Assembly: GCA_025998675.1 (NCBI GenBank)
Contig: AP024673.1
Span: 1,329,221 to 1,393,220, forward strand
Length of the DNA: 64,000 nucleotides
From: Fimbriimonadales bacterium
Lineage (GTDB): Bacteria; Armatimonadota; Fimbriimonadia; Fimbriimonadales; GBS-DC
Reading direction: 5' to 3'
How positions within the stretch are numbered: position 1 is the first letter of the stretch; every line of letters starts with the position of its first letter. Under the pieces are notes generated by a model. It was not told the DNA's origin, did no database searches, and saw only the letters and a list, made by a program, of their open reading frames with translations. Below, piece by piece: positions 12,292 through 16,556 of this stretch. Both the position numbers and the translations under genes were made by a program.

Positions 12292-12804
12292 TCAAAACAA
12301 AGATTCCAATAAGACTCCATCAGGTTTCCATTCCCATATGCGCGCCCCCTTCAGCAGCCGACAGCACCAGATGGGCTCGCACCACCAACCACAAGTCGCA
12401 GGTGTTTCGGGTGCTGCGTGAACAAGTCCTTGCCTTGTTGGAAGAGTCGGTTCATGGCACATGTTGATGTACAAAATTGCCTCGTTGAGTGAAATCGGAG
12501 TATCAAAGTGATACTCGCGGGTGCAGTGGGCAGTTGTTTCCTGAACTCCCCCCTGTTCATCAGGATATCGGATAGTGAATGTGTATTCTACTCGTAGGTT
12601 GTGGACGCGAACATCTTGTGTGACGCTGTCTGTTAGGGTATTGGCGGCAGGTTGTACAGGCTGCGATGTAAAGACGATCATCAGGCAGATTATTGCTGCC
12701 CTCATTGAGGTAGACAGATTGAATGAAACGTCCAAGTTCCCTGCTGACTTGCTTCTGAAGCAGTGCTTGCAAAAGCTGGCATGCCATAAGCTCATACATC
12801 TCAT
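12292..12804 (-). CDS. Unknown protein downstream of Rhs tip 2, possibly frameshifted
   Basis: The frame of 170 residues starts at an ATG overlapping the tip 2 stop (ATGA), with GGAGGT 12 bases before it. The middle ([20 protein letters not shown], then [17 protein letters not shown]) looks like real protein. However, an internal ATG (12705) begins a signal-like stretch [20 protein letters not shown], and the last 45 codons read more protein-like in another frame ([20 protein letters not shown]). So this is either one intact secreted protein, two overlapping genes, or a decayed immunity gene. GC is visibly lower than in the flanking housekeeping genes. Confidence 0.45.
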
Positions 12805-13565
12805 CTTCGGAAAATCACCTCCAGAATACGGTATATAATTTGAAGTGCTTGTGCAGCTTTGAGGAGTCGACTTCCCACAGCCGTTGCAAGTTGTACGCCT
12901 ATATCAGCAGCTTTGTTCGCAACTTCAATCGGGTCTTTGGCTTCAATCTCAACCTCCATAGAAATATTGAGCTTCAGGTTTACCTCCGCTTTGCCACCAG
13001 GGAGTAGCCCTGAGCTTACTTCTGCCTTCACCGAAACTTCGCCAGATATAGTCACCTTTATCTTGACTTTTTGCAATCCTGTCGAATCTATAAAGTTGAT
13101 TGGATTGTTCACACAGTAGCCGTATCGGTTCAGCGTGAGCGGCTCCGCCACATCCCCCAACCACGGGTCTTTCTGCAAAAACCGCCCAATCGTGGGGTCG
13201 TACCAGCGCACGCCAACTTTCACCAAGCCGCCCGTGTGCGCCTCGTACCGATAGCCCCACGCCCCGTTCCACGCATACACCTCAGGGCTGCCGCTCACAA
13301 GGTCGCCGAACGCATCCACCACAGGCGCGGGCTGCGCAGGCGCACTCACACCGTTCGTCGCCACAAGGTCGCCGCGCCAGCTCCAGTGCTGGCTCACATC
13401 GCCACGCTGCAGCAAGTCCAGCCCGTACACCATCGGAACCCACTCGTTGCCACGACGCTCCGCCACCAGCGTATCGCCTGAGTACGCATACTCCACCACC
13501 GCGCCCGCAACGCCGTCCTGCGTGCGCACGCGACAGCCTTGACCGAAGGATAGAAAACAATCCAT
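12801..13565 (-). CDS. Rhs tip protein 2 (orphan, promoterless)
   Basis: 254 residues. Unlike tips 1 and 3 it enters the Rhs core further upstream ([29 protein letters not shown]), lacks the MRLTLRTLR head and has no strong promoter or ribosome site; it begins 10 bp after the unknown gene at 13576-14676. The core ends at NFIDSTG. The 90-residue tail is charged and repetitive ([17 protein letters not shown]..., [15 protein letters not shown]) followed by an amphipathic helix-rich end ([20 protein letters not shown]). This is the classic form of a displaced orphan rhs-CT. Tail activity unknown. Confidence 0.75.
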
Positions 13566-13575
13566 CTACACAAGA

Positions 13576-14676
13576 TTACCCATTTTCTAAGTCTTCTAAG
13601 TTAAAGAAGGATTTTAACAGCTCTTGTACGCTCTGTGGGACGATCTCGTGATGAACAAAATCGAACCACTGCGTAATATATCTTACTTTGAACGCAAAAT
13701 CGCCGTTTTCCTTGAAGACCACCCTTACCGCAACCCAGTGCTTGCTTTTCGTCAGTGGAGTAGTCGATTTCACAACACAACAAAACTCCGCCACATTCCT
13801 ACGTGGGATGTAGAACCCCGCAATCTCAGCTGTAAGTTCATCAGGACTTCTCTCTGCCTGAAGCCAGATAGAAGGGAACATGCGAGCCGTCTTTTGAGCT
13901 TGGCGAAGGGCAGCTGTGCGAGCTAGTTCACACACTTTTGGGATTTCGAGGTGGGGATATTTCATAAAGAGGGACATCAGTCGCTCTTGCATGACCCGCA
14001 ACTCTTCATGTAAGCAGCGGTTGATTTTCTCCAGTGCTATTGTCTCACATATTGCCTCCAGCGAAAGGTTTGAGATTATTTCCAGAGCTGTCGAGTCGCG
14101 AAGCAGAGCTGCACAAAACCCTGCCTCTTCAAGAAGTGCCATAACCTGGCGATTGCTGAGGTAGGTGGGGGTAATCATTTGAAGCCCTACCTCCATCTGA
14201 CTTGTTTCGGGGAAGAAGAAAATTTCTGTGCCATCTCCAAAAAGTCGGGGCACTACGTGGTGAAGCGCTTTGGTGGAGCAGCGGAATAGCCCACGAGACG
14301 GCGGTTCACTAAGGTGGATAATCTGTACGCTTTTCAGTCGAGCGACTCGCTGACGGAGAGGCTTGCCTTCGATAATGCTGGCGACAGCGATCTTCCACGA
14401 TTGGGTTGCTGAGAGCAATCGCAGCGTGCGGGCGAACACAGGAGCCACGAAGTATTTCAGGAACTCTGCGGGTAGAGAGGTCACGACGCCTCCCTCCGTA
14501 TCGTACAGCCGTAGCGTATAAAGCGAGTATCCACGCTCTCTAAGCCGATTGCACAGGTGGTGGGCAGCGAGCTCACTCTTCACCTGTCCGAACAGCCCCC
14601 ACGCCCGCCGACTCTCTGCTACCGTCCACGGGGAAACCTTGAAAACCGCTCCGCTGAGCATCTTGTTAGTCACCAT
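13576..14676 (-). CDS. Unknown 366-aa protein coupled to Rhs tip 3
   Basis: Soluble protein with no recognised domain, no signal and no membrane segment. The N-terminal half is mixed alpha/beta ([38 protein letters not shown]); the middle is a long helical stretch ([21 protein letters not shown]); the end is beta-rich ([19 protein letters not shown]). It overlaps the Rhs tip 3 gene by seven bases, so the two are translated together, and its size and position suit a cognate immunity or chaperone protein. Base composition is lower in GC than the neighbouring housekeeping genes, suggesting transfer. Confidence 0.6.
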
Positions 14677-15473
14677 GGCAAAGGTATTCTGATTTTTGTT
14701 ATTTTCGAGCTACCTTTCCAGATTTCCACATCTAAATGACCACTGCGATGGATTTCATCGCTGGCGTTCGGATCTGGCTCATCAATTCGGACAACTAGCC
14801 GATAATCCCCAGCTTTGAATTCCAGTTTACCGCCTCTCTGCTTGATGTACTTTACTCCAGAACTTGCAATTTTTCTAAGCTCTGGAGATTTTTCCAGCGC
14901 CTCGCGAATGAGCTTGATTTGTGCTCCCGTTAAGCCTGGTATCGCTAGACAGATTATTCCTATTGCAACACCTACCCAGTCTCCTCGACTAAAATCGTAG
15001 ATTATAAACCCGATATCGACGACTGCATCCAAAAATTTTCCCGTAGGATCCACGCCCTGCACGGGGTCATTCACGCAGTAGCTGTATCGGTTCAGCGTGA
15101 GCGGCTCCGCCACATCCCCCAACCACGGGTCTTTCTGCAAAAACCGCCCAATCGTGGGGTCGTACCAGCGCACGCCAACTTTCACCAAGCCGCCCGTGTG
15201 CGCCTCGTACCGATAGCCCCACGCGCCGTTCCACGCATACACCTCAGGGCTGCCGCTCACAAGGTCGCCGAACGCATCCACCACAGGCGCGGGCTGCGCA
15301 GGCGAACTCACACCGTTCGTCGCCACAAGGTCGCCGCGCCAGCTCCAGTGCTGGCTCACATCGCCACGCTGCAGCAAGTCCAGCCCGTACACCATCGGAA
15401 CCCACTCGTTGCCACGACGCTCAGCAGAGGGTGTGCTGTCCAAGTGGCGCAGGGTTCTGAGCGTCAGCCTCAT
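14670..15473 (-). CDS. Rhs tip protein 3 (Rhs core plus candidate toxin tail)
   Basis: 267 residues. Head [20 protein letters not shown], Rhs core to GVDPTG, then a hydrophobic helix ([20 protein letters not shown]) and a compact C-terminal domain with [38 protein letters not shown] and [13 protein letters not shown] hydrophobic linker plus a small basic/His-containing tail is typical of polymorphic nuclease toxins, and the RIDEPDPNA...GHLDVEI pattern recalls several such tails, but I cannot assign a clan. GGGAGG lies 6 bases before the second of two tandem ATGs; that one matches tip 1 and is chosen as start. Confidence 0.8.
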
Positions 15474-15517
15474 CATTGAACCTCCCATTCAGAACATGTC
15501 CTGCGTCGGACGCTTAT

Positions 15518-15774: not shown

Positions 15775-15804
15775 TTGACATCCGCGCTCTCGATGGGGTA
15801 TAGT
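15775..15804 (+). promoter_or_regulatory. Strong promoter of the candidate small RNA
   Basis: TTGACA at 15775-15780 and TATAGT at 15799-15804, 18-base spacer. No ORF with a ribosome site follows. Confidence 0.7.
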
Positions 15805-15810
15805 AAAGCT

Positions 15811-15931
15811 GTCGTCAGGAAGACGACCTTTGTGGAGGGTACCATAGGCCACCTCTACGAAGCATCTGGGACACGGAGGTCCCGCCGCATTTTCTGGGGC
15901 AGGCAGGCGCGCCTGCCCCGATTTCGTTTTT
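15811..15931 (+). ncRNA. Candidate structured small RNA, unidentified
   Basis: About 120 nt between a strong promoter and a hairpin terminator. Three local hairpins can be drawn before the terminator: GTCGTC/GACGAC (15810-15826), GTGGAGG/CCTCTAC (15832-15858) and GGGAC/GTCCC (15868-15883). No convincing ORF. It does not match the consensus of 6S RNA, SRP RNA, tmRNA or the common riboswitches as far as I can judge by eye, and no gene follows in the same direction. Confidence 0.5.
15896..15931 (+). terminator. Rho-independent terminator of the small RNA
   Basis: Nine-base-pair stem GGGGCAGGC (15896-15904) with GCCTGCCCC (15911-15919), then TTTCGTTTTT. The T tract runs into the last codon and stop of upp on the opposite strand. 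Confidence 0.8.
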
Positions 15932-16556
15932 ACCGCGCCCCAGTGCCGTAGAGCCGATCGCCGAAATCGCCCAGACCCGGCAGGATGAATTTTCGGTCAT
16001 TCAGCGCGCGATCTATAGAGGCGGCGACGATTCGCACCTGCGGAAATCGCTCGTTGAGCAGGCGCACGCCCTCAGGCGCCGCGACCACGCAGATATGCAC
16101 GATGTCCTGCGCGCCCGCATTGAGTAGCACCTCTATCGCCTGCGCCGCCGAGCCGCCCGTCGCCAGCATGGGATCCAGCAGCAGCACGCGACTCTCACCG
16201 ATGGGGGGCAACTTGCAGTAATACGCGCGCGCGACCGCCGTCGCCTCGTCGCGCTCCAGCCCAATGTAGCCGACGCGCACCTCCGTGAACAGCTCCGTGA
16301 TGGCTTCCAGCATGCCCAGCCCCGCCCGCAAGATGGGCACAGCAACAATCGGCTGCGCCAGCGAGTGTCCCTGCGTCGGCTCCAGCGGCGTCTGTACAAT
16401 GTGTTCCCGAATCGGCAAATCGCGTGTCGCTTCAATCGCCAGCAGGAGAGTTAGCTGTCGCGCCAGCGCACGAAACTGGGCAGGCTCCGTCGTCGCGTCG
16501 CGCAGGCGCGTGAGAATATGCTTCACCAGCGGATGGTGTACGACTTCTATCTGCAT
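15930..16556 (-). CDS. upp: Uracil phosphoribosyltransferase
   Basis: 208 residues, the family length. Converts uracil and PRPP to UMP in pyrimidine salvage. The PRPP loop is VLLLDPMLATGGSA, the uracil-binding end is FGDRLYGTG, and IVAVPILRAGLGML is present. A GGGTACACT box (16574-16579) lies 17 bases before the ATG, giving a very short leader with weak ribosome-site character (GGTGAG). First gene reading left from the ruvX/HD-GYP group but separately promoted. Confidence 0.96.
   Translation of the reverse strand: MQIEVVHHPLVKHILTRLRDATTEPAQFRALARQLTLLLAIEATRDLPIREHIVQTPLEPTQGHSLAQPIVAVPILRAGLGMLEAITELFTEVRVGYIGLERDEATAVARAYYCKLPPIGESRVLLLDPMLATGGSAAQAIEVLLNAGAQDIVHICVVAAPEGVRLLNERFPQVRIVAASIDRALNDRKFILPGLGDFGDRLYGTGAR

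Follow-up and report, generated by a model that had tools for sequence, protein, structure and literature searches.

A conserved small RNA of Armatimonadota with two GGA-bearing hairpin loops, a candidate CsrA antagonist in genomes that encode FliW

Introduction

Antagonists of CsrA are thought to be of two largely exclusive kinds, small RNAs (sRNAs) in gammaproteobacteria and the protein FliW elsewhere; titration of CsrA by an sRNA is known mainly from gammaproteobacteria and is unexpected in bacteria with FliW control. The known Csr/Rsm sponges usually have many CsrA sites, and McaS, an enterobacterial sRNA that also pairs with mRNAs, shows together with other CsrA-binding sRNAs of few sites that few sites are enough. 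FliW is strongly anti-correlated with BarA-UvrY, the system that transcribes the gammaproteobacterial Csr sRNAs (PMC4682653), and the joint action of FliW and sRNAs in any species is described as left to be determined (PMC7652899).

In C. jejuni, the flaA leader is a dual-function, CsrA-titrating mRNA (PMC4894983), and machine learning has predicted RsmA-regulating sRNAs in Geobacter sulfurreducens and Oceanobacillus iheyensis (PMC5568370). The idea of a CsrA sponge outside the gammaproteobacteria is not new, given the Geobacter predictions treated in PMC5568370 and PMC11934962. At the level of titles and abstract openings, we found no species with FliW for which titration of CsrA by an sRNA is proven, and searches for CsrA with an Armatimonad small RNA and for Fimbriimonad noncoding RNA returned no papers in the library searched. 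Here, we describe a locus from a Fimbriimonadales genome that we read, with a probability of roughly 0.6 and from its sequence and that of its relatives, as a compact CsrA-titrating sRNA with two sites, from a phylum that encodes FliW.

Results

The locus lies in a 64,000-nucleotide stretch of contig AP024673.1 (the window), for which an earlier note had proposed a strongly promoted, structured RNA with three local hairpins and a terminator, about 120 nt long and lacking an open reading frame. The proposed sigma-70-type promoter, TTGACA-N18-TATAGT (15775–15804, plus strand), is present and near-consensus, with the −35 box at 15775–15780, an 18-nt spacer and the −10 box at 15799–15804 matching at 11 of 12 positions. 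In addition to the promoter scan, a TTGACA or TTGACT paired with a TATAAT-like box was found at the equivalent place in the 13 relatives with upstream DNA examined, and the surrounding 3-kb stretch contains three promoter-like sites against a shuffled mean of 0.8. From the promoter position, the fold and the T tract, we place the predicted sRNA at 15811–15931 on the plus strand, with a putative 5′ end about 7 nt past the −10 box and a 3′ end at the T tract; if transcribed, it would be about 115–120 nt long. The intrinsic terminator (15895–15931, plus strand) consists of a stem at 15895–15920 followed by T-rich sequence up to TTTTT at 15927–15931; its stem varies in sequence among relatives, and terminator-like sites in the 3-kb stretch are not above chance (two against a shuffled mean of 2.4). 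At the sequence level, the locus is a free-standing unit with its own promoter and terminator, as Csr/Rsm sRNAs are. The hairpins and terminator are present as the note had described them, and the fold bears them out. The absence of an open reading frame holds in substance, since the mechanically called frames that cross the region are broken, in the alignment, by single-base indels in hairpin 1 and the linker that shift the frame among relatives. A small protein from the GTG frame, which was read by eye, was likewise rejected, as substitutions fall at all codon positions in the relatives and the indels break its frame.

The convergent neighbour is upp, encoding uracil phosphoribosyltransferase (15930–16556, minus strand; PF14681, and TIGR01091 at 232 bits, above its cut-off of 208). 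The T tract shares two bases with the complement of the upp stop codon (15930–15932), which confirms the overlap that the note had pointed out, and upp adjoins the RNA on the opposite strand in loci L001–L014. In genome G016, the same promoter and core adjoin hpf, a ribosome-hibernation (S30AE) gene, instead of upp, which lies about 20 kb away on the same contig with nothing resembling the RNA in its inspected flanks. The position of the RNA is therefore not tied to upp, and because one genus carries it beside hpf, the RNA most likely acts in trans. The upstream neighbour also varies among relatives, as in genome G001, where the RNA is preceded by a gene for 16S rRNA (L010:1-1193, minus strand). 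On the minus strand of the window are two RHS-core tails (12801–13565 and 14670–15488; TIGR03696), whose first part is mostly common before they diverge, with a 366-aa frame without assignment between them; they resemble orphan RHS C-terminal cassettes. Another good promoter-like site, TTGACA-N18-TACACT preceded by TG (15547–15518, minus strand), is directed towards the RHS frame.

The predicted fold of the 121-nt strand comprises three hairpins and the terminator, with a folding energy of −55.6 kcal/mol against −41.0 ± 3.75 for dinucleotide shuffles (z = −3.9), none of 200 of which was as stable. Hairpin 1 (GUCGUC-AGGAA-GACGAC, 15811–15827, plus strand) carries a GGA in its loop at 15818–15820; hairpin 2 (15828–15862) has 10–11 pairs, a GGA in its stem at 15834–15836 and a partly conserved apical loop; a linker CAUCN follows at 15863–15867; and hairpin 3 (GGGAC[ACGGAG]GUCCC, 15868–15883) presents an ANGGAN hexaloop, a candidate CsrA site, with its GGA at 15875–15877. 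In an alignment of 14 sequences, from which we also built a covariance model, 96.9% of 293 cells of the three-hairpin structure are paired, and pairing drops to 43–52% in controls in which the structure was slid along the alignment. Five pairs are changed on both sides, three of the six in hairpin 1 and two of the ten in hairpin 2, and between 0 and 2 of 500 shuffles matched the structure in pairing or covariation, depending on the measure. Unprompted, RNAalifold recovers 19 of the same pairs. The stem of hairpin 3 is invariant in the 14 genomes, such that covariation speaks neither for nor against it. In single-sequence minimum-energy folds, hairpin 1 forms in 11 of 14 sequences and hairpin 3 likewise in 11, three of the latter with the loop narrowed to CGGA. 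The compensatory changes in hairpins 1 and 2, which the note had named as a check, were thus found in the relatives, and the alignment indicates that the three-hairpin fold is under selection. The CAUC linker and parts of the apical loop of hairpin 2 are invariant in all 14 genomes and accounted for by neither pairing nor CsrA; these unpaired residues can be seen in L013, L061 and other loci.

The loops resemble CsrA sites. As set out in PMC7652899, such a site is an ANGGAN hexaloop with AC and GU closing and the GGA unpaired, the CsrB repeat reads CAGGA(U/A/C)G, and CsrA can bridge a pair of sites separated by 10 to 63 nt. Hairpin 3 reads GGGAC[ANGGAN]GUCCC over 16 columns in 14 of 14 genomes, with variation confined to the two Ns (C/U and G/U); it is conserved beyond what CsrA binding requires. 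The loop of hairpin 1 retains GGA in all 14 genomes, as AGGA or A(G/C)GGA, while its stem pairs covary: nine, the window's copy among them, have a pentaloop AGGAA or AGGAG with A at −1, of which three fit CAGGA(U/A/C)G exactly, and five have ANGGAN. In the window's genome (G000), the loop region reads CAGGAAG, and the two loop GGAs are spaced 57 nt apart (15818 and 15875). The GGA in the stem of hairpin 2 is present in nine of 14 genomes and lost in five; conservation thus extends to the GGAs of the loops but not to that of the stem. GGA in hairpin loops, as in Csr/Rsm sRNAs, is hence found here (ANGGAN in 14 of 14 genomes for hairpin 3 and five of 14 for hairpin 1), and the many sites that would serve several CsrA dimers are not, with two loop sites and one unconserved stem GGA. 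Two such GGA loops in one fold occurred in none of 2000 dinucleotide shuffles and in two of 2130 window tiles, one of which is the small RNA itself, counts that refer to a motif recognised post hoc and do not constitute a pre-planned test. Single ANGGAN hairpins with stems of five or more pairs number three in the window, with no enrichment over control motifs (2 to 11).

No Rfam family accounts for the locus. Rfam 15 at gathering score gave zero family matches on the small RNA, including from its Csr/Rsm models, and covariance models of 6S RNA, SRP RNA and riboswitches did not match. With five related loci included, the sole matches around the RNA at gathering score were one tRNA and one 16S rRNA, and a known Rfam family was rejected for the RNA in the window and in these five loci, which leaves no family by which to rename it. 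In a permissive scan, the only sub-threshold match on the strand of the RNA was RsmV at 8.3 bits (E = 2.5, gathering score 100), covering hairpin 3, which we take as a hint of the loop motif and not of homology; the other strand gave P24 (E = 8.8). Of the note's assignment to an unknown class, the absence of an Rfam family stands, and the class itself is narrowed by loops that point to CsrA.

Next, we consider the distribution of the RNA. A BLAST-type search of 41 genomes recovered copies beside upp, and the covariance model found one copy each in 15 of the 18 genomes of the window's family, the 14 model sequences included. Across the order it matched 15 of 113 genomes and across the phylum 16 of 291, in searches that scored 43 or 16 candidates per genome and may miss diverged copies; the sixteenth match (G182, E = 0.048) is expected by chance among 291 genomes, leaving no convincing copy outside the family. 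Public records with the exact core (n = 14) are, by title, 13 Armatimonadota/Fimbriimonadales or HRbin15 assemblies and one 'bacterium isolate MAG_7'. The locus is a conserved small RNA gene of hot-spring Armatimonadota. The covariance model found no copy in three family genomes, G010, G015 and G017. In G010, which is 93% complete, upp was not found either, and the contig may therefore be absent; in G015 and G017, upp is present, its inspected flanks contain no RNA-like sequence, and the model search of the genome was also empty. A repeat element was rejected, the RNA having one full genomic copy, with other matches being short fragments, many of which fall within the stem of the terminator.

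Among the 41 genomes, csrA is found in 39 and fliW in 36. In the window's genome, fliW lies directly upstream of csrA and the pair behind a flgL-like gene, a reading made from inspection (with a weaker flagellin-N match at 802187–802597). The CsrA of this genome has 77 aa and, counted manually on the translation, retains L4, R6, R44 and E46, as well as N55 (for FliW), residues with roles described in PMC7652899 and PMC11934962. Among PDB structures, it is matched best by 5dmb (a carbon storage regulator homologue) and also by 2jpp, an entry for RsmE with RNA. A CsrA with RNA-binding residues is thus encoded in the RNA's own genome, as for Csr/Rsm sRNAs.

Flagellin leaders served as an independent control. 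Flagellin matches were obtained in 17 of 18 family genomes, with loci for 30 of the matches, from which 28 leaders were read (type 2, 13; type 1, 15), two G012 loci without a start being excluded. An ANGGAN hairpin lies 50–60 nt before the start in 11 of 13 type-2 leaders (for example L126), with loops ACGGAA (eight), ACGGAU (one), AGGGAU (one) and AUGGAG (one) that vary at the Ns alone, and with a second pair that is U-A in G000 and C-G or U-G in relatives. In minimum-energy folds, this hairpin has the hexaloop in eight of 11 leaders, narrows to a tetraloop in two and is unformed in one. A further ANGGAG is situated at the Shine-Dalgarno of type-2 leaders, and is less telling because it is similar to any strong Shine-Dalgarno; type-1 leaders carry ANGGAA directly at the start codon in 11 of 15 by manual count. 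From its sequence, the type-2 leader hairpin is likely a CsrA target site. The two type-2 leaders without it belong to G015 and G017, the family genomes with upp and without the RNA, a co-absence that may reflect one split in the tree and little more than one event.

Discussion

We propose that the locus encodes a stand-alone sRNA that, transcribed from its sigma-70 promoter to its own terminator, would bind and titrate CsrA. Hairpin 1 would offer A-GGA or ANGGA and hairpin 3 an ANGGAN hexaloop with AC/GU closing it. Hairpin 2 would space the two, such that a single CsrA dimer could bridge hairpins 1 and 3. Occupation of CsrA by the sRNA would relieve repression of CsrA targets, the most plausible being the flagellin mRNA, whose leader has a like hairpin and a second GGA at the Shine-Dalgarno. 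The sRNA would work alongside FliW, the protein antagonist encoded beside csrA. We favour this reading as the simplest one because a single loop motif, variable at its free positions alone, recurs in the stand-alone RNA and in the leader of a flagellin mRNA, in genomes with csrA and fliW; that the RNA is transcribed, that it binds and titrates CsrA, and which way this would act are predictions from the sequence. Its weaknesses are the few sites, the pentaloop in most copies and the unexplained invariant linker.

That linker speaks for a trans base-pairing sRNA, whose seed would be the invariant GAAGCAUC with the unpaired linker CAUC, or the apical loop of hairpin 2. The GGA loops would then be incidental, protective or a means of recruiting CsrA in the matchmaker role described for SR1/ahrC in B. 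subtilis, where CsrA promotes the pairing (PMC7652899). Such pairing would account for the CAUC and apical-loop residues that are otherwise unexplained in all 14 genomes; however, duplexes between the RNA and the flagellin leaders (both leaders, nine genomes), which are candidate targets only, beat all 100 mononucleotide shuffles in one of 18 cases and shared no pairing site, and we regard this explanation as rather unlikely.

A near-consensus promoter, a strong structure and a single copy per genome would also suit a scaffold or housekeeping RNA with another protein as partner, in a 6S-like or SRP-like RNP. This we judge improbable, since no 6S, SRP or other Rfam model matches at gathering score and an RNA found in 15 of the order's 113 genomes, all from a single family, is distributed too narrowly for housekeeping. 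The note had also suggested an effect on upp mRNA 3′ ends, and a cis element for upp, either a convergent antisense RNA or a terminator shaping these ends, would fit the two-base overlap and the adjoining upp of L001–L014. A conserved role of this kind is weakened by G016, in which the RNA sits beside hpf and far from upp; conservation covers the promoter and the hairpins but not the overlap, and the terminator stem differs among relatives; we consider a cis element very improbable. The note's broader suggestion of a trans-acting, structured, stand-alone RNA gene is supported by the hpf-side copy and the compensatory changes. In the CsrA-titrating reading, upp is not part of the proposed mechanism.

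If CsrA titration is correct, it would be a case in which an RNA that titrates CsrA arose independently. The more specific proposition, that an RNA antagonist on the RNA-binding face and FliW on the C-terminal side of CsrA operate in one cell, with an origin in Armatimonadota separate from that in gammaproteobacteria and gained with a strong ANGGAN site in the flagellin leader, has in our estimation an even chance. A conserved candidate in a clade with csrA and fliW makes the question of joint FliW and sRNA action directly testable.

Among known systems, the Csr/Rsm antagonists (CsrB, CsrC and RsmX/Y/Z/V, with Rfam clan CL00106 for RsmV) are likewise stand-alone, with GGAs in loops and their own promoter and terminator. 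The RNA described here differs from them in having no detectable homology and two loop sites instead of many, and in occurring with a sigma-70-like promoter in a FliW-encoding phylum. McaS shares with it the small number of CsrA sites, but belongs to enterobacteria and has mRNAs as pairing partners as well. The predictions of PMC5568370 are also CsrA-binding sRNA candidates, defined by at least two ANGGA and a terminator, and Geobacter has fliW; they are single-genome predictions, for which we saw no comparative support and no mention of Armatimonadota, and under a strict two-ANGGA rule the RNA here would fail on its loops in nine of 14 genomes. Nor did we see comparative evidence of the present kind for the Geobacter predictions in PMC11934962. 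The C. jejuni flaA leader, from an organism with CsrA and FliW, also presents GGA in two hairpin loops, which a single CsrA dimer is believed to occupy (PMC4894983); there the loops belong to a coding mRNA, whereas the RNA described here stands alone, and a separate site is found in the flagellin leader.
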